Shown: positions 2,118 through 14,281 of the stretch, one piece after another
Layout of the letters: each line of letters opens with the position of its first letter
How positions within the stretch are numbered: position 1 is the stretch's first letter
Source: Candidatus Undinarchaeales archaeon
GTDB taxonomy: Archaea; SpSt-1190; JASMDC01
DNA: 28,721 nt
Assembly (NCBI GenBank): GCA_030753015.1
Contig: JASMDC010000031.1
Location: 13,843 to 42,563 of the forward strand
Reading direction: 5' to 3'
The notes under the pieces: generated by a model
The model's input: only the letters and a program-made list of their open reading frames with translations
What the model was told of the DNA's origin: nothing
Database searches by the model: none
Position numbers and translations under genes: made by a program

Positions 2118-2127
2118 AGTTATATAT
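2118..2127 (+). promoter_or_regulatory. TATA-like element upstream of the solenoid protein
   Basis: GTTATATATT lies in the short gap after the phosphohexomutase stop and about 34 bp before ATG 2157. It suggests that the large surface protein has its own promoter with a very short leader and is not only read through from upstream. Confidence 0.45.
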
Positions 2128-2156
2128 TGATTGACGGGTGTCAGTCCCTTGAGCAG

Positions 2157-5018
2157 ATGGTGGAGCGGACGGGGTCGATTGTCGGGGCACTAGTGCTCAC
2201 TCTATTCATTGCCTTCGCACCCGGTCTGGGTGAAAAGATAGTGGAAGGTGAGGGGACCGTCACACTCGATATTGACTTTCGCTCCACCGAGGATATCATC
2301 GTTAAAGATAGTGCCACCCTGATTCTCCGGGACATGGAGCTTGACATGAACCAGGCCTATGATGACGAATTAATCATCAGGGTTGAGGAGCAAGGGAAAC
2401 TCATCCTCTCGAACGTTCAGATTAGCTCGAACAAGCACATCGTGCTCAGTGTGTTGGAAGGGGGGTCCCTCGAGGCCACTAACAGCACGATAATCGTCGA
2501 CGAACTCCTGACCGATACGACCGGAACCATAGCATTCACCGACTCGAGTGCACTGGGTTTCCTTACGCTGAAGGCAGATCGGGTAACGATGCTCCGTAGT
2601 CGGATACTCGCTCAACGGCTCGATATCCAAGCCATGAGTGAGGCAAAGATCGATGGCTGCCCGGATATTCAGAACCTTCACACACTTGACGCCCCATATT
2701 TCAAGATTATAGACTCGGTGATCGTGAGCCAAGAGACGCTCGAGCTCAAGGGCACATCGACGAGCTCTGTGGTATCCAATCTTACAGCCACAGCCCCGGA
2801 GATCCGTATATCGTCGGGATTCGAACTTGAAGTGCGCGACTCTTGGTTGAGTGCCAAGGAGCCCGAAGGATTGACCCTCATCCATCTCATAGCACCGACA
2901 CTCCTGGTTTCCACTTCAAAGATGGAGGTCGCCGAAGGTCATCGGGCCGGCATCCTTCTGCGTGGGACTAATGTTGACGCCAGGAACCTCACAGTAACGG
3001 GAAGCTGTGACGTGGGCTGTGCCAACATCACGCTTGAGATCAAGGGCAAGACGCTCATCCTCCACTCGATCATGGCCAACCTCAAGGGGGGCTCGGCCCC
3101 TGATGGCACTGGTGGGCATGGCGCGAACGCCACCATCATCATCGCAAGTGACCGTATGACCGCTGCAGACCTCACCTTCACTCTCATTGGGGGATACGGA
3201 GGCGATGGACGGTTCATTGGTGGGAACGGTGGTAATGCCACCGCTTTGTTCCTCAGTGATGAGACATCCGTGGACCGCGGACTTGTCTCGCTTAACGGTA
3301 GTGAGGGGGGTGACGGGGGATTCGATCCCGGTGTGGAACTCCGGCTTGGAGGCAATGGTGGACACTCGTCAATGATGGTGCGAGCCAAGACTGCGACCCT
3401 TAGAGACATGACCTATAATGGCCTGGGCGGCTTCCCCGGGGACGCTGGGAAAGGGCCAGGATTATGTGGTGATGATATCATTACAATCGAAGCGGACAAG
3501 GTCACGGTCATCGGTACGGTCATGAACAGTAATGGTGGTGAGGGACGAGAACCTAACTACCAACGTAAGGACAGTCACGGATGTGATGGGCGGGTGACTC
3601 TCACGGGGAGGACACTTGTGATCGAGCACGACACGTTCCGGGCCACTGGCGGCGACTGTGCCCCGTCCACCGAGTGGGCCGCTGTAGGCGGGAACGGCCT
3701 CGTGACCGTCACAGGTGAGCAGGTGAACATAATGGACTTCACGGTCCGAGCGAACGGGGGCTCGGGTGGCATCGGGAAGGAGCATCCATCGTTCCGGACT
3801 TCTGGATGGGCGAACCTGACGCTAGAAGGCTCTACCGAGCTCTCTGTACTCGACTTCGACATTACAGCTGATGCCAGAATTGAGTCAAAGGCCGGCACAC
3901 TTCGCGATCTGACGTTGAAGGGCACACCCCTCATCGGCGGTACCCTCTCACTTATCAATCCCCGCCTCAACGACGCCCGGTCACCTCTTCTAGATGCGGT
4001 TCAATTCCCATCCAATGACCGCTATCTCCTCAAACTTGATGTCACGTACTACCTTGACGTCACAGTCAAGGATAAGGAAGGGAAGGCCTTCCCGGGAGCG
4101 CGCGTTGCACTCTACGAGCCCCTCGGCAGCGAACCTGTCTATGTCGCACACTCGGATAGCGATGGTCATACGCGAATCGAGGCTCAAGCGGAGCAGATTA
4201 CGCGGAGCAAGGATAATTTCCAAGGCAACTTCCGAGTAGTGGCGACCGCCTTGGGTGCGAAGGCCGAGAAGGGGCTCATCCTAGATACATCGAAGGCTTT
4301 GACGCTCACTCTTGACGCCGTCTATCAGCCCGAGCCGACGGTCCCGGTCGAGCCGGGTCCTGACGAGAACGTGACCGGCGGGACGCCCGGTACCACACCG
4401 GTTCCCGAGTTGGTAGTTCCTACGCCCTTCCCCACACCAACACCCCATCCCGTGACTGCTATCCGGGCGACGCCACCGCCCGATCCCGCCGACATGGCCG
4501 CAAGAGCCCGGGCACTTGTCAAAACCCAGCCGTTCAGAGCACTGGTAATGGCGGACGAGGCCCTAGCGGTCGATCCTTCCAACAAGCGGGCCCGACTTCA
4601 ACGAGCCACGGCTCTCGAAGCGCTGGACCGGTACAAAGAATCGCAACTGATGTACGAGCTTGTGCTCATCGATGATCCCGGCGACGCGGAAATACGTGCT
4701 CGTGTCGACGAGGTCAAAGTGAAAGCCGAGGAGATTGCAGCCAAAGCCGCGACCGGAGATGCAACGGAGACGACAACTGGTGACCTCACTTGGACCATCA
4801 TCAAGGTCCTTGTGGGCCTGCTGGTCGTAGTGTTCATCATCGGTGTTGCGATGGTAATCATGTCGAATCCCGCCCAACAGGACCGTGAGACGGAGGCTAT
4901 CCGCTCTTTCACCCTCCAATGGACACAGCAGGGGTACACTCCCGACCAGGTCCGTGAGTACTTACTTGGTATGGGATACCCGTCTGAGAAGATCGAGGCC
5001 GTAATGATCGGAAAGTAA
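2157..5018 (+). CDS. Large membrane-anchored beta-solenoid surface protein
   Basis: The protein is 953 aa and unusual in domain order. An N-terminal signal peptide (VGALVLTLFIAFAPG) is followed by about 600 residues of repetitive short beta strands with Gly-rich turns (GGYGGDGRFIGGNGGNA and similar), which look like a right-handed beta-helix or solenoid. Next comes a domain like the carboxypeptidase regulatory/Ig fold (DVTVKDKEGKAFPGARVALYE, about 635-720), then a Pro/Thr linker (about 725-770). A helical TPR-like pair follows (ARALVKTQPFRALVMADEAL onward), then one TM helix (about 878-902, IIKVLVGLLVVVFIIGVAMV). The last 50 residues form a cytosolic tail with a UBA-like helix pattern (QGYTPDQVREYLLGMGYPSE). 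Several N-x-T/S sequons lie in the outer part. In-frame TTG 2127 is an alternative start. Likely a cell-envelope protein; ligand unknown. Confidence 0.75.
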   Translation: MVERTGSIVGALVLTLFIAFAPGLGEKIVEGEGTVTLDIDFRSTEDIIVKDSATLILRDMELDMNQAYDDELIIRVEEQGKLILSNVQISSNKHIVLSVLEGGSLEATNSTIIVDELLTDTTGTIAFTDSSALGFLTLKADRVTMLRSRILAQRLDIQAMSEAKIDGCPDIQNLHTLDAPYFKIIDSVIVSQETLELKGTSTSSVVSNLTATAPEIRISSGFELEVRDSWLSAKEPEGLTLIHLIAPTLLVSTSKMEVAEGHRAGILLRGTNVDARNLTVTGSCDVGCANITLEIKGKTLILHSIMANLKGGSAPDGTGGHGANATIIIASDRMTAADLTFTLIGGYGGDGRFIGGNGGNATALFLSDETSVDRGLVSLNGSEGGDGGFDPGVELRLGGNGGHSSMMVRAKTATLRDMTYNGLGGFPGDAGKGPGLCGDDIITIEADKVTVIGTVMNSNGGEGREPNYQRKDSHGCDGRVTLTGRTLVIEHDTFRATGGDCAPSTEWAAVGGNGLVTVTGEQVNIMDFTVRANGGSGGIGKEHPSFRTSGWANLTLEGSTELSVLDFDITADARIESKAGTLRDLTLKGTPLIGGTLSLINPRLNDARSPLLDAVQFPSNDRYLLKLDVTYYLDVTVKDKEGKAFPGARVALYEPLGSEPVYVAHSDSDGHTRIEAQAEQITRSKDNFQGNFRVVATALGAKAEKGLILDTSKALTLTLDAVYQPEPTVPVEPGPDENVTGGTPGTTPVPELVVPTPFPTPTPHPVTAIRATPPPDPADMAARARALVKTQPFRALVMADEALAVDPSNKRARLQRATALEALDRYKESQLMYELVLIDDPGDAEIRARVDEVKVKAEEIAAKAATGDATETTTGDLTWTIIKVLVGLLVVVFIIGVAMVIMSNPAQQDRETEAIRSFTLQWTQQGYTPDQVREYLLGMGYPSEKIEAVMIGK

Positions 5019-5037: not shown

Positions 5038-6456
5038 TTAGCTTCCGACCACATCGTACACGTCTATATCGTCCCCCTCGCGAACAGCGGCGAGCTCACG
5101 GGTGATTCCTTCATTGTTCTCAAGATTGACACTACCGCTATCAAGGTCGAGGCCGACCTGAACCCATTTGTCCCCGGAGACTAGTCTGAATCCGTCCTCT
5201 CTCATCACGACTTCGGCATCCGTCACCCAGTCGGCGTTGAACGTTTCCTTGATATAGTTACGAATGGGTGCATAGCCTTGTTTGGCTAAGGACCCCCAGG
5301 AGAATAGGAATGTCTTAGAGAGGGCGTCGAGTGTGACCTTTTCGGTCATCTGCTCGAAGTTCACCCTCCCGCGCCAAGCAAGGCACGGCGCATCCAGCCG
5401 TGCGCTGTGGAGGAGGACGCGCGCTCTTAGCCAGGGGATGAACATGAGCCCCTGAGTGAGCGTTTCAGGGACCACATAGGTAATGGTCTCACCGGGAGGG
5501 AGGCTCTGGGGAAGGCAGTCGGGGCACGCGGTTAGACGACCACAGGCGCCCCTTCGTGTGCGCACTCCTAAGGACGATGTCTTCGGAACGATACGGCCCA
5601 GGAGCGAGTCGATCACAACGAATGGTTCGAGGAGCGTTTCGCGAGAAATGTGGTCACTACCTGTGTTCCTCAGGGTGATGACAAGGGCCGGGCGTTCAAG
5701 GCGGCATGCTCTGGCAGAAGCATCCGATGCTAAGCTCATAGAATCGCAGGTCACTGCTATAGTGGTGTCAGGGGAGCCCTCGGACGCGGAGAGATCCCAT
5801 ACCACAAGGCAGAGCCCGACACTGACCATCGCGATCAATACCGTCACCGCAATGGCCATACGCCCAAATCCCCCCTCAGTTTCATCGATGTCCACGGATA
5901 TTTGCTCACCTTCTCCCTCGACGAAGTCGCGTAAGAGGTACTCGCTGGACGGTGCGATCTCACCACGTCCCCGGGCCCATATCGCAGCGAGGACGACGAG
6001 CCCGCCAAGTACGAGTCCGATGACGATCTGCCAACGGCCGATACCGGACGATGAGGGTGCCAAGGCCACAGGCTTCGACCTGAGTGGACAGACATCTGGC
6101 CAGGTGATGACCATCTGGGCCGATGATGGTGTGGCTGCACACTCATCACACCTCTCGATGTTCAACGTCCCAAGCGGGTGTGCCCACGAGAAGGGCTTGG
6201 CACTTTTCCCATAGGGCACGAGCAGAGTCGTACCGACATCCTTGCTTAGTGTATCGACCAAGATGAGTGAGGCCGCGTGTCCGCCCGTGATCTGATCACG
6301 GGTAACGCTCGCCAGGGTCAGCGTCATGTCGCAGAAACGGCGGCGCGTACCGGTCGTGAACATGACGCGCTTCTCTTGGGCAATTACAGTCGTGATGAGT
6401 ATGAGGAGAGTGAGAATGATGGTCGCTACGCACCACCTCGTCCTGGAACGTGTCAT
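5038..6456 (-). CDS. Three-TM membrane protein with duplicated Cys-containing ectodomain
   Basis: The protein is 472 aa and I recognise no family. TM1 (10-26) leads into an outer domain with paired cysteines (FCD, ERCDEC, DVC). TM2 (142-161) returns the chain to a short acidic cytosolic loop (REFs near DFVEGEGEQISVDIDETEGG), and TM3 (199-221) leads to a second outer domain. The two outer domains look like copies: each starts with a CD...LAS stretch, has a hydrophobic strand, and ends with a C-x2-C followed by strands (CDEC...QMVITWP versus CPDC...TITYVVP). The C-terminal 100 residues (after about 370) look like a separate alpha/beta domain. The start is ATG 6456, only 5 bp after the stop of the Cys-repeat lipoprotein gene, so the two are one operon. 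An upstream in-frame extension would overlap that gene and lacks a TM-compatible sequence. Confidence 0.7.
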   Translation of the reverse strand: MTRSRTRWCVATIILTLLILITTVIAQEKRVMFTTGTRRRFCDMTLTLASVTRDQITGGHAASLILVDTLSKDVGTTLLVPYGKSAKPFSWAHPLGTLNIERCDECAATPSSAQMVITWPDVCPLRSKPVALAPSSSGIGRWQIVIGLVLGGLVVLAAIWARGRGEIAPSSEYLLRDFVEGEGEQISVDIDETEGGFGRMAIAVTVLIAMVSVGLCLVVWDLSASEGSPDTTIAVTCDSMSLASDASARACRLERPALVITLRNTGSDHISRETLLEPFVVIDSLLGRIVPKTSSLGVRTRRGACGRLTACPDCLPQSLPPGETITYVVPETLTQGLMFIPWLRARVLLHSARLDAPCLAWRGRVNFEQMTEKVTLDALSKTFLFSWGSLAKQGYAPIRNYIKETFNADWVTDAEVVMREDGFRLVSGDKWVQVGLDLDSGSVNLENNEGITRELAAVREGDDIDVYDVVGS

Positions 6457-6461
6457 TCCTC

Positions 6462-8687
6462 TCAGCACCAACGGTCCCGGATGGTCCCGTCGAGCACATC
6501 GCAGGCAGCGAGATCTCCCACGACTTCTGACAGGCACCAAGCTCGGGACTCGCCGGCCAGGCTGTCGCACAGCTCATGGTTGCCAATGGTTGTGGCGAGG
6601 TAGAGGACACATGCGTCCCTGGTAGAGTTGGTAGCGATGAACGCGCACACGTCCGCATCTGCTCTGGCCTGGGCGCAGTGGTAGAGGCAAAGGTCCTGTG
6701 CCCATTCAACTGTGAGGGCGGTGCAGGGCTCGGTGCACTCCTCGTTCGCAAGGGCCTTGCACCAGTTCAGCTCAAGTGTCGTGGGGATATCGTCACAGAT
6801 GCTCGGATCATCGAACGCTCGGGCGATGAGGGCTATGCACCGTTGGCGCGGGAAGCGGGCCTCGATCTCACGACACTGCTCCGCATTCCGGGTCTGGACA
6901 GCGAACAATGATGTGCATTCGCCCCGGAGACGGGTATTGACGATGTCATTACAGGGGAACACGCTCCGGGATGCTTCCGCGACCCTCGCTAGACAGTCGT
7001 CCCGGAGGGCGGCCAGGCCAATCTCCTTACACACGGTGTCGTCCTTTGTGTACACGGCGAGGTCATGCATGCAGCGGTCGCGGACCATGACCAGCTCGAT
7101 GCTGGAACAGTCTGCCTGCTCCCCTCGCGCGCTGACGGACAGGACGCACGCAGCCATGCACTGTGAGCGCATCCACGGCAGCGATAGGTGGTCTGAGAGG
7201 CAACGCTCGCATGAGCCGGAGGAAACGGCCTGGCACCATGTGCGTGAGCTCCCCTCGGGGAGCGCGTCGCACAAGGCGGGCTCAACAGCCGCTGCAGCGA
7301 CGGCTAGGATACATGTCGTCCACATGTTTGACGAATCGATCGCGGAGCACACCTCAGGTTCAATGCGACGTCCGGCCAGATGGACTGTGCATGCTCCGGT
7401 GACATTCTTTGTGACTATGTCCGAGGGGCAGGCAGTTACGTTCTTCCCACTCCTCACCCCGGCCAGTACGCACTGTTCCCTGAGCGTGAGCGGATGCTCG
7501 TTGGCAATCGGCCCGCAGAGGACCAGAGGGGCAATCCCCGGGAGAGCCTGAGAGGCGCAGGCCTCGCGCTCGGGGCCCTTGGGAAGAACGTCACACACCG
7601 ACGGATCGCTTGTGGCCGCTGCTACTGCATGGACACACAGTCCTTTCGTAGCCTCCCCGAGCTGATTAACACAAATGTCGACATCGCCTGTCGCGAGTGC
7701 GACACGGATGAGGCAGGATTCGCGAGTCGTTTTGTCGGCCATGTTCGAACATGCATCAACCGCAGGAATATACGGTACGAATGCCTCGAGGCAGCGGTCA
7801 TTGGACCGGGGATTCTGGACATTGGTGCACGCAGTCGCGTCCCATCCTCGGATCCCGATCCCTAAATAGCACTCGTCCGCGATGGCAGGATCGGCGATCA
7901 GAGCGCAAAGGGAGATGTCCGCTGTAGCGATCGCTATCGGTGAGAGGCAGGAGTCCTTGGCGAAGCTGCTGAGGATGGGATCGCAGATCGAGGGATCATT
8001 ACGCTCTATGGCGACGGACCGGTAGCACCAGTCACGGTCCTTCTCCGCAGGGATGAGCTCGCACAGTGCCATATCTACCAGAGAGCGGGCCACTGCAGCG
8101 ATACATGTGCCCTTCACCTCATCAGTAGCGATCTGTTCGCAATAGGTACTATTACCAGAGCGCTCGGCCAGCGAGGAGAAGCAGTCGTCCCGCAGCCCAC
8201 CCGCGTCCAGCGCTGTGCACAGACCCTCGGTCCGTTGCTCCGGGAATCTGGCCAGACATGCGTTCCTGACGCCCGCGTCCTCGATCCACCGGCATCCGTC
8301 AGCGTCGTCGATCGTCGCAGCGAGGTCCCGGTAGCAGGAGCGTCGGAGTGGTTGGGCGTCGGTGTCGGTACGAACTCGCGCGCATAGCGTCATGTCGCCC
8401 TTCTCCTTCGCGGTCGCCACCACACACTTGTCCCGGGAAATGTGGACAACGCACCGTTCGCACACGCTCACGTCACCGAACGCTGGCACCGTTGCGATGT
8501 AGCACGAGTCGTGGAGCCCGGAATCGGTGATGGCCGCGCACAGGCCCGGATCGTTACTACTCAGAGCATTGTTCTTGATATCCTGCGCCTCGTCCACTGA
8601 CTGCCCCCCGATGCATCCTGCAAGGAGCAGTGCGATGATGAGCAGCGACGGTAGCGTGCCGTCGCCCAGACCATTCTTCCTTCCCAT
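6462..8687 (-). CDS. Cys-pair tandem-repeat lipoprotein (about 27 repeats)
   Basis: The protein is 741 aa. It begins with a lipoprotein-type signal (LPSLLIIALLLAGCIGG; lipobox LAGC). Almost the whole mature part is a run of about 27 repeats of roughly 24-30 residues. The pattern is D-x3-C-x2-I-x5-[KR]-[DG]-x-C-[LYI]-x2-[VL]-A-x5, for example DPSICDPILSSFAKDSCLSP and DISLCALIADPAIADECYLG. Two Cys per repeat, about 11-12 residues apart, suggest one disulfide clamping each helical hairpin, so an extracellular disulfide-rich alpha-solenoid is likely (inference). Units around residues 500-540 carry extra CxxC pairs. The start ATG 8687 has a TATA-like element about 30 bp upstream. It is the first gene of an operon with the duplicated-ectodomain membrane protein. 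A shorter paralogous array occurs at 13514-14281. Function unknown; a protein-binding scaffold is plausible. Confidence 0.8.
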   Translation of the reverse strand: MGRKNGLGDGTLPSLLIIALLLAGCIGGQSVDEAQDIKNNALSSNDPGLCAAITDSGLHDSCYIATVPAFGDVSVCERCVVHISRDKCVVATAKEKGDMTLCARVRTDTDAQPLRRSCYRDLAATIDDADGCRWIEDAGVRNACLARFPEQRTEGLCTALDAGGLRDDCFSSLAERSGNSTYCEQIATDEVKGTCIAAVARSLVDMALCELIPAEKDRDWCYRSVAIERNDPSICDPILSSFAKDSCLSPIAIATADISLCALIADPAIADECYLGIGIRGWDATACTNVQNPRSNDRCLEAFVPYIPAVDACSNMADKTTRESCLIRVALATGDVDICVNQLGEATKGLCVHAVAAATSDPSVCDVLPKGPEREACASQALPGIAPLVLCGPIANEHPLTLREQCVLAGVRSGKNVTACPSDIVTKNVTGACTVHLAGRRIEPEVCSAIDSSNMWTTCILAVAAAAVEPALCDALPEGSSRTWCQAVSSGSCERCLSDHLSLPWMRSQCMAACVLSVSARGEQADCSSIELVMVRDRCMHDLAVYTKDDTVCKEIGLAALRDDCLARVAEASRSVFPCNDIVNTRLRGECTSLFAVQTRNAEQCREIEARFPRQRCIALIARAFDDPSICDDIPTTLELNWCKALANEECTEPCTALTVEWAQDLCLYHCAQARADADVCAFIATNSTRDACVLYLATTIGNHELCDSLAGESRAWCLSEVVGDLAACDVLDGTIRDRWC

Positions 8688-8749: not shown

Positions 8750-8758
8750 CTATATAAG
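8750..8758 (+). promoter_or_regulatory. TATA element for the small zinc protein
   Basis: CTATATAAG is centred about 33 bp before ATG 8787. It is separate from the TATA of the divergent lipoprotein gene; these starts are 99 bp apart and do not share an element. Confidence 0.5.
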
Positions 8759-12308: not shown

Positions 12309-13517
12309 ATGCGCGAGGCGCCGTGGGTGGAGAAACATCGCCCACGCCGGCTCAAGGACGTTCTCGGGAATCCTTCCGTTGTCAAGAGGATGAATGGATG
12401 GCTGCTCAACTGGAAGGGTGAACGCCACAAAGCATTGCTCATCCATGGCCCTGCTGGATGCGGCAAGACCACGGCCGCATACGCCCTTGCCGAGGAACAT
12501 GACAGGGAGGTAGTGGAGCTCAATGCCTCCGACTTCCGGCGCAAGGTCGATATCAACGATATAATGGGTAACGCCGCGACCCAACAAAGCCTGTACCGGC
12601 GCGAGCGCATCCTACTGCTGGATGAGGTCGACGGGATACATGGCACCGCCGACCGGGGCGGCCTCCCTTCGCTGCTCAAGATCATACGGACCACCGCCTA
12701 CCCCGTGATCCTCACGGCCAACGACATCTACCAGCCCAAGCTCAGGGCTCTGCGGCTCCTATGCGAGGTCGTCCCGTTCCGCAAGCCCGCGGTCGTTGCG
12801 GTGAAGAAAGCCCTGCGTCGTGTGGTCGATACCGAGGGACGAGACGTCGAGGACGAGCTCCTCTCCGACATCGCAAGCCGTTCCGGGGGAGATATCCGTG
12901 CCGCCATCAACGACCTTCAGACCGCTCTCGCAGGAGGTATCCCCCTCGCGGACCTGGAGGCGCTTGGGAACCGGGACCAGACACGCTCGCTCACGGAGGC
13001 CGTGCGCATCGTGCTCAAGACACGGAACATCCAGCATGCCCTCGAAGCGACGGACAACCTCACCGAGGATCCGGACACGGTGTTCACCTGGATAGCCCAC
13101 AATGTCGCGCTCGAGTACGACGAACCTGAGGACCTGGCCCGGGCCATGGACCGGCTCTCCCGGGCCGATGTGTTCCGTGGACGCATATTCCGGTCACAGA
13201 ACTGGCGGTACCTCGTGTACATGCGCGACCTCATGACCGCCGGTGTTGCCCTGGCGAAACGCGACAAATACCGCAAGTTCGTCAAGTACGGGTATCCCCA
13301 GCGTATCATTAGGATGGGGCGGAGCAAGGAGCTTCGCGCCACGCGTGACGAGATCGCCGAGAAAGTGGCGCGGCGGTGCCATACATCGCGTCGTGTCGTT
13401 ATAGACGAGTACCTTCCTGTCCTGGTCCGTGTCCTTCCCCGTTCGCCCGAACTCGCTGAGGGACTGGGGCTCACTGAATCAGACGTAGCGTTCCTTGCGG
13501 AGTTCTTGCGCCGCTAA
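12309..13517 (+). CDS. rfcL: Replication factor C large subunit (clamp loader)
   Basis: RFC-L is an AAA+ ATPase that, with RFC small subunits, loads the PCNA clamp at primer-template junctions. It starts WVEKHRPRRLKDVLGN, the RFC box. Walker A is GPAGCGKTT (47-55), Walker B LLLDEVD (about 102-108), sensor 1 TAND (about 136-139) and sensor 2 region GGDIRAAINDLQ. The collar domain follows (to about 390). The protein is 402 aa, shorter than the usual archaeal 450-500, and ends SDVAFLAEFLRR. The canonical C-terminal PCNA-interacting peptide (QxxLxxFF) and the Lys-rich tail are not visible. ATG 12309 is about 27 bp from the TATA-like element. The stop overlaps that of the convergent Cys-repeat gene by 4 bp. 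Confidence 0.93.
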   Translation: MREAPWVEKHRPRRLKDVLGNPSVVKRMNGWLLNWKGERHKALLIHGPAGCGKTTAAYALAEEHDREVVELNASDFRRKVDINDIMGNAATQQSLYRRERILLLDEVDGIHGTADRGGLPSLLKIIRTTAYPVILTANDIYQPKLRALRLLCEVVPFRKPAVVAVKKALRRVVDTEGRDVEDELLSDIASRSGGDIRAAINDLQTALAGGIPLADLEALGNRDQTRSLTEAVRIVLKTRNIQHALEATDNLTEDPDTVFTWIAHNVALEYDEPEDLARAMDRLSRADVFRGRIFRSQNWRYLVYMRDLMTAGVALAKRDKYRKFVKYGYPQRIIRMGRSKELRATRDEIAEKVARRCHTSRRVVIDEYLPVLVRVLPRSPELAEGLGLTESDVAFLAEFLRR

Positions 13518-14281
13518 CCGGAAGTCTCAGCTTCCATCTCGTTACCGGTCACGTTCGCGGGTGATGGGACACCGGACGGCCCCGTGACGTTGGCCGGTTG
13601 CGGCGTCGCCGTAGCGTTGTCCAACTCGGTGACGTTCACATCGGGTAAGTGGGGTGCGTCAGTAGCGTTGCCGGTGGTCGGGTTCCCCTCGCCGGTCACG
13701 TTCATGTCCACGATAACGTTCCCGTCCAGAGGCACGATCCTCTCGGCCGGTGGGGGGAGAGGTGAGGCGGCCGCGTCACGTTCGCATCGCTGGCGGAGGG
13801 AATTGATGGCCAGGGCGGTGCACAGGGTGGGGTCCTGGGCAGCGCGCGCACGGCATCGGACCCGCCAGTCCTCGCTCGTCATCCGGTCGCACACCTCTGA
13901 GTCAGACGCTCCCGTGTCATAGAGGCAACGATCGCGCATCCCAGCGGACGTACCATCACAGATGGAATGATCACCGACAGCCTGGGCCCTGGCGATGAAA
14001 CACTCGTCCCGCTCGATCCCCTGGGGGCGGTCCATGCATGGTGCGGTGACCCCACCGCCCCTTAATGAGGCAAAGTAGAGGAGCGAACCCAGGACTATTA
14101 CCGTGAGGGCCAGTGCCCACAGAGGGATGTGTGTCGTCTCCGGCTCGGGGGACGCCTCCCAGTGCCCGGTCTGCTGCCAGGGTTCACCGTACCCTTCCTG
14201 ATAGGTGTACCCTTCCTGCGGGTCAGCGACGGTCTGCTCGTATCCGGCATTCTCGGTACCCTCCCAGGAGCCCGGGTCCAC
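13514..14281 (-). CDS. Single-TM Cys-repeat surface protein with N-glycosylation sequon tail
   Basis: The protein is 255 aa. Residues 1-51 are a cytosolic low-complexity segment rich in Gly, Glu, Gln, Tyr and Trp (EGYTYQEGYGEPW), residues 53-72 are one TM helix, and 80-170 hold four Cys-pair repeats (C82/C94, C108/C119, C131/C143, C154/C166) of the same type as the lipoprotein at 6462-8687 (for example DHSICDGTSAGMRDRCLYDT). The C-terminal part (about 185-250) is disordered and has six N-x-T sequons, N194, N205, N216, N222, N231 and N243, suggesting a heavily N-glycosylated outer stalk. The start is GTG 14281, about 27 bp from a TATA element shared with the plus-strand neighbour. The stop overlaps that of rfcL. 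Topology and glycosylation are inferred. Confidence 0.75.
   Translation of the reverse strand: MDPGSWEGTENAGYEQTVADPQEGYTYQEGYGEPWQQTGHWEASPEPETTHIPLWALALTVIVLGSLLYFASLRGGGVTAPCMDRPQGIERDECFIARAQAVGDHSICDGTSAGMRDRCLYDTGASDSEVCDRMTSEDWRVRCRARAAQDPTLCTALAINSLRQRCERDAAASPLPPPAERIVPLDGNVIVDMNVTGEGNPTTGNATDAPHLPDVNVTELDNATATPQPANVTGPSGVPSPANVTGNEMEAETSG

Follow-up and report, generated by a model that had tools for sequence, protein, structure and literature searches.

The window, the stretch of 28,721 nucleotides that was analyzed as a whole, carries on its minus strand a gene for a cysteine-rich lipoprotein, herein named P0001 (6462..8687). The open reading frame runs from an ATG at 8687 to a TGA at 6464-6462 and encodes 741 residues, 60 of which are cysteines. 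A putative TATA-box-like sequence, CTTATATA, was read directly from the sequence ~64 nt before the ATG (8751..8758, minus strand). The N terminus bears the signature of a secreted lipoprotein, meaning a hydrophobic stretch, LLIIALLLAGC, that is closed by the lipobox LAGC (8613..8624, minus strand) with Cys25 as the presumed lipidated residue. An array of Cys-pair units spans 6465..8552 on the same strand. A first-pass annotation of this DNA, made from the sequence alone, had described a lipoprotein of about 27 such repeats at 6462-8687; the unit-by-unit reading yields exactly 27 and leaves the coordinates unchanged. The same annotation saw a lipobox and no other domain, which agrees with the database searches: P0001 matched nothing in Pfam (E up to 1), NCBIfam, PHROGs, or the PDB sequences, profiles of enzyme families included. 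A Pfam search of 19 relatives likewise returned no match.

The stop codon of P0001 is separated by only 5 nt from the start of a downstream gene (5038..6456, minus strand), the operon partner. It encodes a membrane protein of 472 residues with three hydrophobic segments, two Cys-bearing ectodomains, and the motifs CDEC and CPDC. Hence, the proposed operon with a membrane protein bearing CxxC motifs is borne out, but the proposed duplication of its ectodomain is not detectable, as a BLASTP comparison of the two ectodomains gives an E value of 2.4. The partner has no Pfam match and shows no thioredoxin fold. Its C-terminal domain of ~90 residues (about 380-468) recurs in four other proteins of the same genome (the host genome; contigs C29, C20, C95, and C68) and belongs to no known family. 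Upstream of P0001 lie a gene whose product has only subthreshold winged-helix matches and a divergent TPR gene. The contig also encodes the replication factor C large subunit and asparaginyl-tRNA synthetase and is, therefore, archaeal. A second, shorter paralogue with a transmembrane anchor and about four Cys-pair units lies in the same window (13514..14281, minus strand).

The basic building block of P0001 is a unit of mostly 26 residues with one cysteine pair, usually C-x11-C. The family consensus reads [DN]-P-[ST]-[LI]-C-[ED]-[KR]-I-x-[DN]-x3-[RK]-D-x-C-[YLI]-x2-[VLI]-A-x4. The two cysteines are 12 residues apart in 23 units when unit 24 is counted, much as first described (about 12 residues, in units of 24-30). 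The distance is 16, 15, 13, 14, and 11 in the irregular units 3, 14, 15, 18, and 26, respectively. Unit 18 (7122..7214, minus strand) contains an extra cysteine pair, C493/C514, and unit 24 (6660..6737, minus strand) another, C651/C671; both units are probably double staples, as far as can be read from their sequences. The 60 cysteines are thus accounted for by 54 in the 27 pairs, four in the extra pairs, the lipobox C25, and a lone C79. The array opens and closes with a 12-spaced pair, and the last residue of the protein is the second cysteine of the final unit. This spacing is far beyond chance: consecutive spacings of 12/14 or 14/12 occur 31 times, whereas 2000 residue shuffles contain 0.10 on average and two at most, and a Cys-spacing DNA pattern that is present six times in the gene never arose when the window was dinucleotide-shuffled 100 times. 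No tandem array was detected in the DNA of the gene; the units have diverged.

From an in-register alignment with 19 relatives, AlphaFold2 modeled the nine units 5-13 with a mean pLDDT of 93.8 and a pTM of 0.78. In this model, each unit consists of two helices with one cysteine on each: a short one of only 4-7 residues, at about residues 2-6, and then a 15-residue one at 11-25. The full mature chain, whose prediction had been suggested as a check, is all-helical as well (pLDDT 78.1), with weaker values where units are irregular; because of several low-confidence stretches, the overall shape of P0001 is not fixed by this model. A Foldseek search of the PDB with the P0001 model gave nothing at E ≤ 0.001. 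A VIA search returned helical superhelices, mostly TPR, with Z up to 8.8, a level common among helical repeats. That neither search listed a confident fold match does not by itself make the fold new. An α-solenoid of short units is nevertheless well supported by the models, and the alternation of a short and a long helix with one cysteine on each fits the disulfide-staple solenoid of helical hairpins that the first-pass annotation had envisaged, the bonds themselves being deduced.

The likely pairing of the cysteines can be appreciated from runs of cysteines in 131 related proteins; since these sequences are related, nominal p-values overstate the following differences. Of the run ends, 135 fall on a 12-spacing and 26 on a 14-spacing; for the starts, the counts are 106 and 36, respectively. 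The number of cysteines is even in 122 runs and odd in 50. Array ends and parity, hence, favor the 12-spacing as the disulfide-bonded one, within the unit. On these sequence statistics, each hairpin is probably held by its own intraunit disulfide. With the 27 pairs and the two extra pairs, up to 29 disulfides are possible in P0001. As to the machinery that might introduce them, the suggested partnership with DsbA/VKOR-like oxidoreductases holds in one half: VKOR has no match in the host genome, and DsbA-like thioredoxin-fold domains are present with nine matches, seven of them strong and located in four open frames. Across the archaeal genomes, VKOR occurs in 17 of 66 with the repeat and in 11 of 231 without it; this association looks significant, but it rests on a single family (f9), and p rises to 0.11 once that family is removed.

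The first-pass annotation expected similar proteins in other archaea, and the search widened this to bacteria. At a threshold of E ≤ 1e-6, a profile of the repeat hits 66 of the 297 archaeal genomes searched and as many as 18 times in a single genome; the three genomes that had contributed rows to the profile are bound to match it. The Cys-spacing pattern occurs in at least 113 stretches of named genomes. Among the matches listed, most are in Woesearchaeota, Micrarchaeota, Altiarchaeota, Diapherotrites, Pacearchaeota, and Nanoarchaeota—mostly DPANN—and some in CPR bacteria, namely Falkow-, Lipton-, and Komeilibacteria and Paceibacterota. Of 286 genomes searched in one CPR phylum, to which the Liptonbacteria genome belongs, 16 match. 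Binning errors are unlikely for some loci, namely those that reside on closed or long contigs (CP010424 and CP058998; 327 and 375 kb in CPR). The few pattern hits in ordinary bacteria (Clostridiales, Prevotella, Mycolicibacterium, Ruminococcus, Actinomycetes, and others) lie in open frames without the consensus and were set aside as seemingly due to chance. No match was obtained in phage or plasmid collections, and no close relative turned up in viral contigs, whether the query was P0001, a consensus protein, or a synthetic alignment. One IMG/VR viral contig carries genuine-looking Cys-pair units (L045, 10624..10905); this stretch may belong to the edge of a provirus or to cellular DNA. No description of Cys-repeat surface proteins in DPANN or CPR was found in open-licence papers. 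Going by sequence, the repeat is a large, so far unnamed family, mostly of DPANN archaea with some CPR bacteria.

Within the host genome, at least nine loci have clear Cys-pair units, and the number rises to about sixteen when weaker ones, read by eye, are included; the shorter paralogue in the window is one of these loci. Two of the nine, L005 (41% GC) and L008 (50% GC), differ from the other repeat loci (about 60%) and may come from the 5% contamination of the assembly. The profile found no match in nine other genomes of the host's class. The host assembly measures 3.85 Mb as compared with 0.6-1.1 Mb in these nine, and part of it may be contamination, as the 41% GC of the L005 region suggests. 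Two host paralogues, L186 (950..2929, contig C56) and L188 (1449..2894, contig C11), have longer Cys-pair units of ~32-36 residues and no Pfam match; they are a possible link between the 26-residue family and repeats of Sel1/TPR length.

The evolution of the array is best seen in a relative from Liptonbacteria (L048), the DNA of which is a 78-bp tandem of 13.7 copies. The 26-residue unit is, hence, also the unit of evolution. The number of repeats differs widely among the relatives of P0001. Over 378 residues, L048 shares 48% identity with a protein of Diapherotrites (L134), a likeness that suggests transfer between domains, although convergence on a strong consensus or misbinning of small contigs may also account for it.

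A lipobox or an N-terminal hydrophobic segment is present in 110 of 121 members with a visible N terminus, and some of the others show weaker signals. Export and membrane anchoring of the family members are, on these predicted signals, well supported. No oxidoreductase recurs among the neighbors at 82 operon-like flanks of relatives, and these neighbors share no function outside one arrangement in Micrarchaeota. In this arrangement, a DHH-family gene adjoins a Cys-repeat membrane protein (L046, L057, L067, L071, L076, L138, and L143), and a second recurrent gene adjoins the repeat gene in five loci (L067, L076, L098, L138, and L144). Five KaiC-type ATPase matches are found among the neighbors. 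The DHH-type arrangement is conserved in Micrarchaeota and one Marsarchaeota bin.

Several known repeat proteins resemble P0001 in part. TPR proteins consist of 34-residue units without Cys staples and are usually cytosolic. P0001 shares the generic two-helix repeat with TPR superhelices such as LGN and O-GlcNAc transferase (VIA Z 7 to 8.7); however, the rmsd is 9-12 Å and no TPR profile matches P0001, whereas a neighboring gene does match TPR in Pfam. In LRV repeats, whose units are short, a short helix alternates with a long one; to our knowledge, they lack a two-Cys staple. P0001 is like the LRV protein (1lrv) in its short units and helix alternation (VIA Z 6.3, rmsd 6.0 over 205 residues), but it has the Cys pair and shows neither sequence similarity nor an LRV profile match (Pfam, E up to 1). 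Sel1 repeats are about 36 residues long. With its unit of 26 residues, its short first helix, and the lack of a Sel1 profile match, P0001 differs from Hcp and other Sel1-like proteins, with which it shares the exported α-solenoid of helical hairpins and, as predicted for P0001, one disulfide staple per unit. In Hcp, the disulfide links the end of a repeat with the beginning of its successor (PMC3851747); in P0001, the sequence statistics would place it within the unit. In COA7, which shares this general design, disulfides were modeled between cysteines 9 or 11 residues apart (PMC6505684), and 11 residues lie between the paired cysteines of P0001. Periscope proteins (SasG, Rib, and Sgo_0707) use folded domains to project a terminal ligand-binding domain (PMC8201768). 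They resemble the present family in being surface-anchored tandem repeats that grow by unit duplication, as seen in L048; unlike them, P0001 has diverged units, no tandem in its DNA, and no terminal domain.

Taken together, P0001 is probably an oxidatively locked, surface-anchored α-solenoid that acts as a stiff binding or spacer scaffold, a role that we infer from its architecture. The protein would be secreted and lipid-anchored outside the cell membrane. A bond between the first cysteine on the short helix and the second on the long helix would staple each hairpin, and about 29 disulfides would lock the stacked hairpins into a stiff rod or superhelix, roughly 20-27 nm in length if the rise per unit is typical. 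The variable residues, which lie between conserved Cys, Ile, Arg-Asp, and Ala, could then serve as a recognition surface or as a spacer, and P0001 probably acts together with the neighboring membrane protein. The presence of several paralogues per genome suits diversified surface receptors or spacers.

The regular pairing of 60 cysteines in 741 residues might also be read as a means of binding metal ions (e.g., Cu, Zn, or Hg), which would make P0001 an extracellular metal buffer or chaperone. This is improbable: the protein contains only nine His and nine Met, neither of which appears in the unit consensus, the run ends and parity of the cysteines fit pairwise disulfides, and the members are exported, where Cys pairs usually oxidize. 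Still less credible is that the pairs form a redox store or a substrate of thiol exchange for the CxxC-bearing neighbor, an idea prompted by the CDEC and CPDC motifs of the partner; that protein lacks a thioredoxin fold or a Pfam match, and no oxidoreductase recurs beside the genes of the relatives.

Two other readings concern the repeat itself. P0001 could be a divergent Sel1-like (Hcp-type) or TPR protein instead of a member of a separate family, given that TPR-type superhelices come closest to it in structure (VIA Z of at most 8.8), that Hcp is disulfide-stabilized, and that COA7 was modeled so (PMC3851747, PMC6505684). The absence of a Sel1 or TPR profile match in P0001, its 19 relatives, and the long-unit host paralogues, a unit of 26 and not 34-36 residues with a first helix of 4-7, the lack of a Foldseek match at the threshold used, and Z values that are common among helical repeats render this unlikely. 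More weight, while still clearly the lesser part, is given to a passive spacer or envelope-building element—a periscope-like stalk or wall material without a specific ligand. Some relatives are nearly pure repeat with tandem arrays at the DNA level, repeat number varies widely among them, and periscope proteins provide a precedent (PMC8201768). The diverged units of P0001 without a DNA tandem are, however, unlike length-variable stalks, and some relatives add domains such as PAAR, whereas P0001 has none to project. The locked scaffold, hence, is the preferred reading of P0001. For the family as a whole, it is conceivable, albeit doubtful, that disulfide-locked solenoids are common to ultra-small DPANN and CPR organisms, have moved between the domains of life, and serve contact with host or partner cells.

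The cell-contact machinery of uncultured archaea and CPR bacteria is poorly known, and the repeat is absent from Pfam and NCBIfam even though roughly one in five of the archaeal genomes sampled carries it. Its consensus and the confident model offer a way to annotate "hypothetical" surface proteins in these organisms. The family also points to heavy extracellular disulfide folding in DPANN/CPR lineages, and a short, stapled helical repeat may serve protein design.

Other Cys-rich and modular proteins were encountered alongside. In the host genome, a 1681-residue frame (L185, 3713..8755, contig C51) contains many other Cys-rich modules and a membrane segment near its C terminus, and a second Cys-rich protein adjoins it; surface proteins of the Cys-rich kind seem to be abundant in this host. 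A small contig labeled Izemoplasma (L117, 1870..3153) encodes a lipoprotein in which Cys repeats precede a PAAR-motif domain (E 9.5e-17). Its repeats are 57% identical to a Komeilibacteria protein, and the contig is possibly misbinned, judging from this identity. A 41-residue "GY" domain with the pattern xLxxYIxxxxxQGYDxxxIxNxLLxYGYxxxxIDxAI occupies the C-terminal 40 residues encoded at 2127..5018 (plus strand) in the window as well as the N terminus of L006 and the C terminus of L182. Two of its carriers were searched in Pfam and gave no match. This apparently cytosolic domain has 18 matches in the host genome, on membrane proteins, and it is also found on Cys-repeat proteins of Woesearchaeota, in which an N-terminal domain of the GY type (41 residues) is followed by a membrane segment, a further region, and then the repeats.
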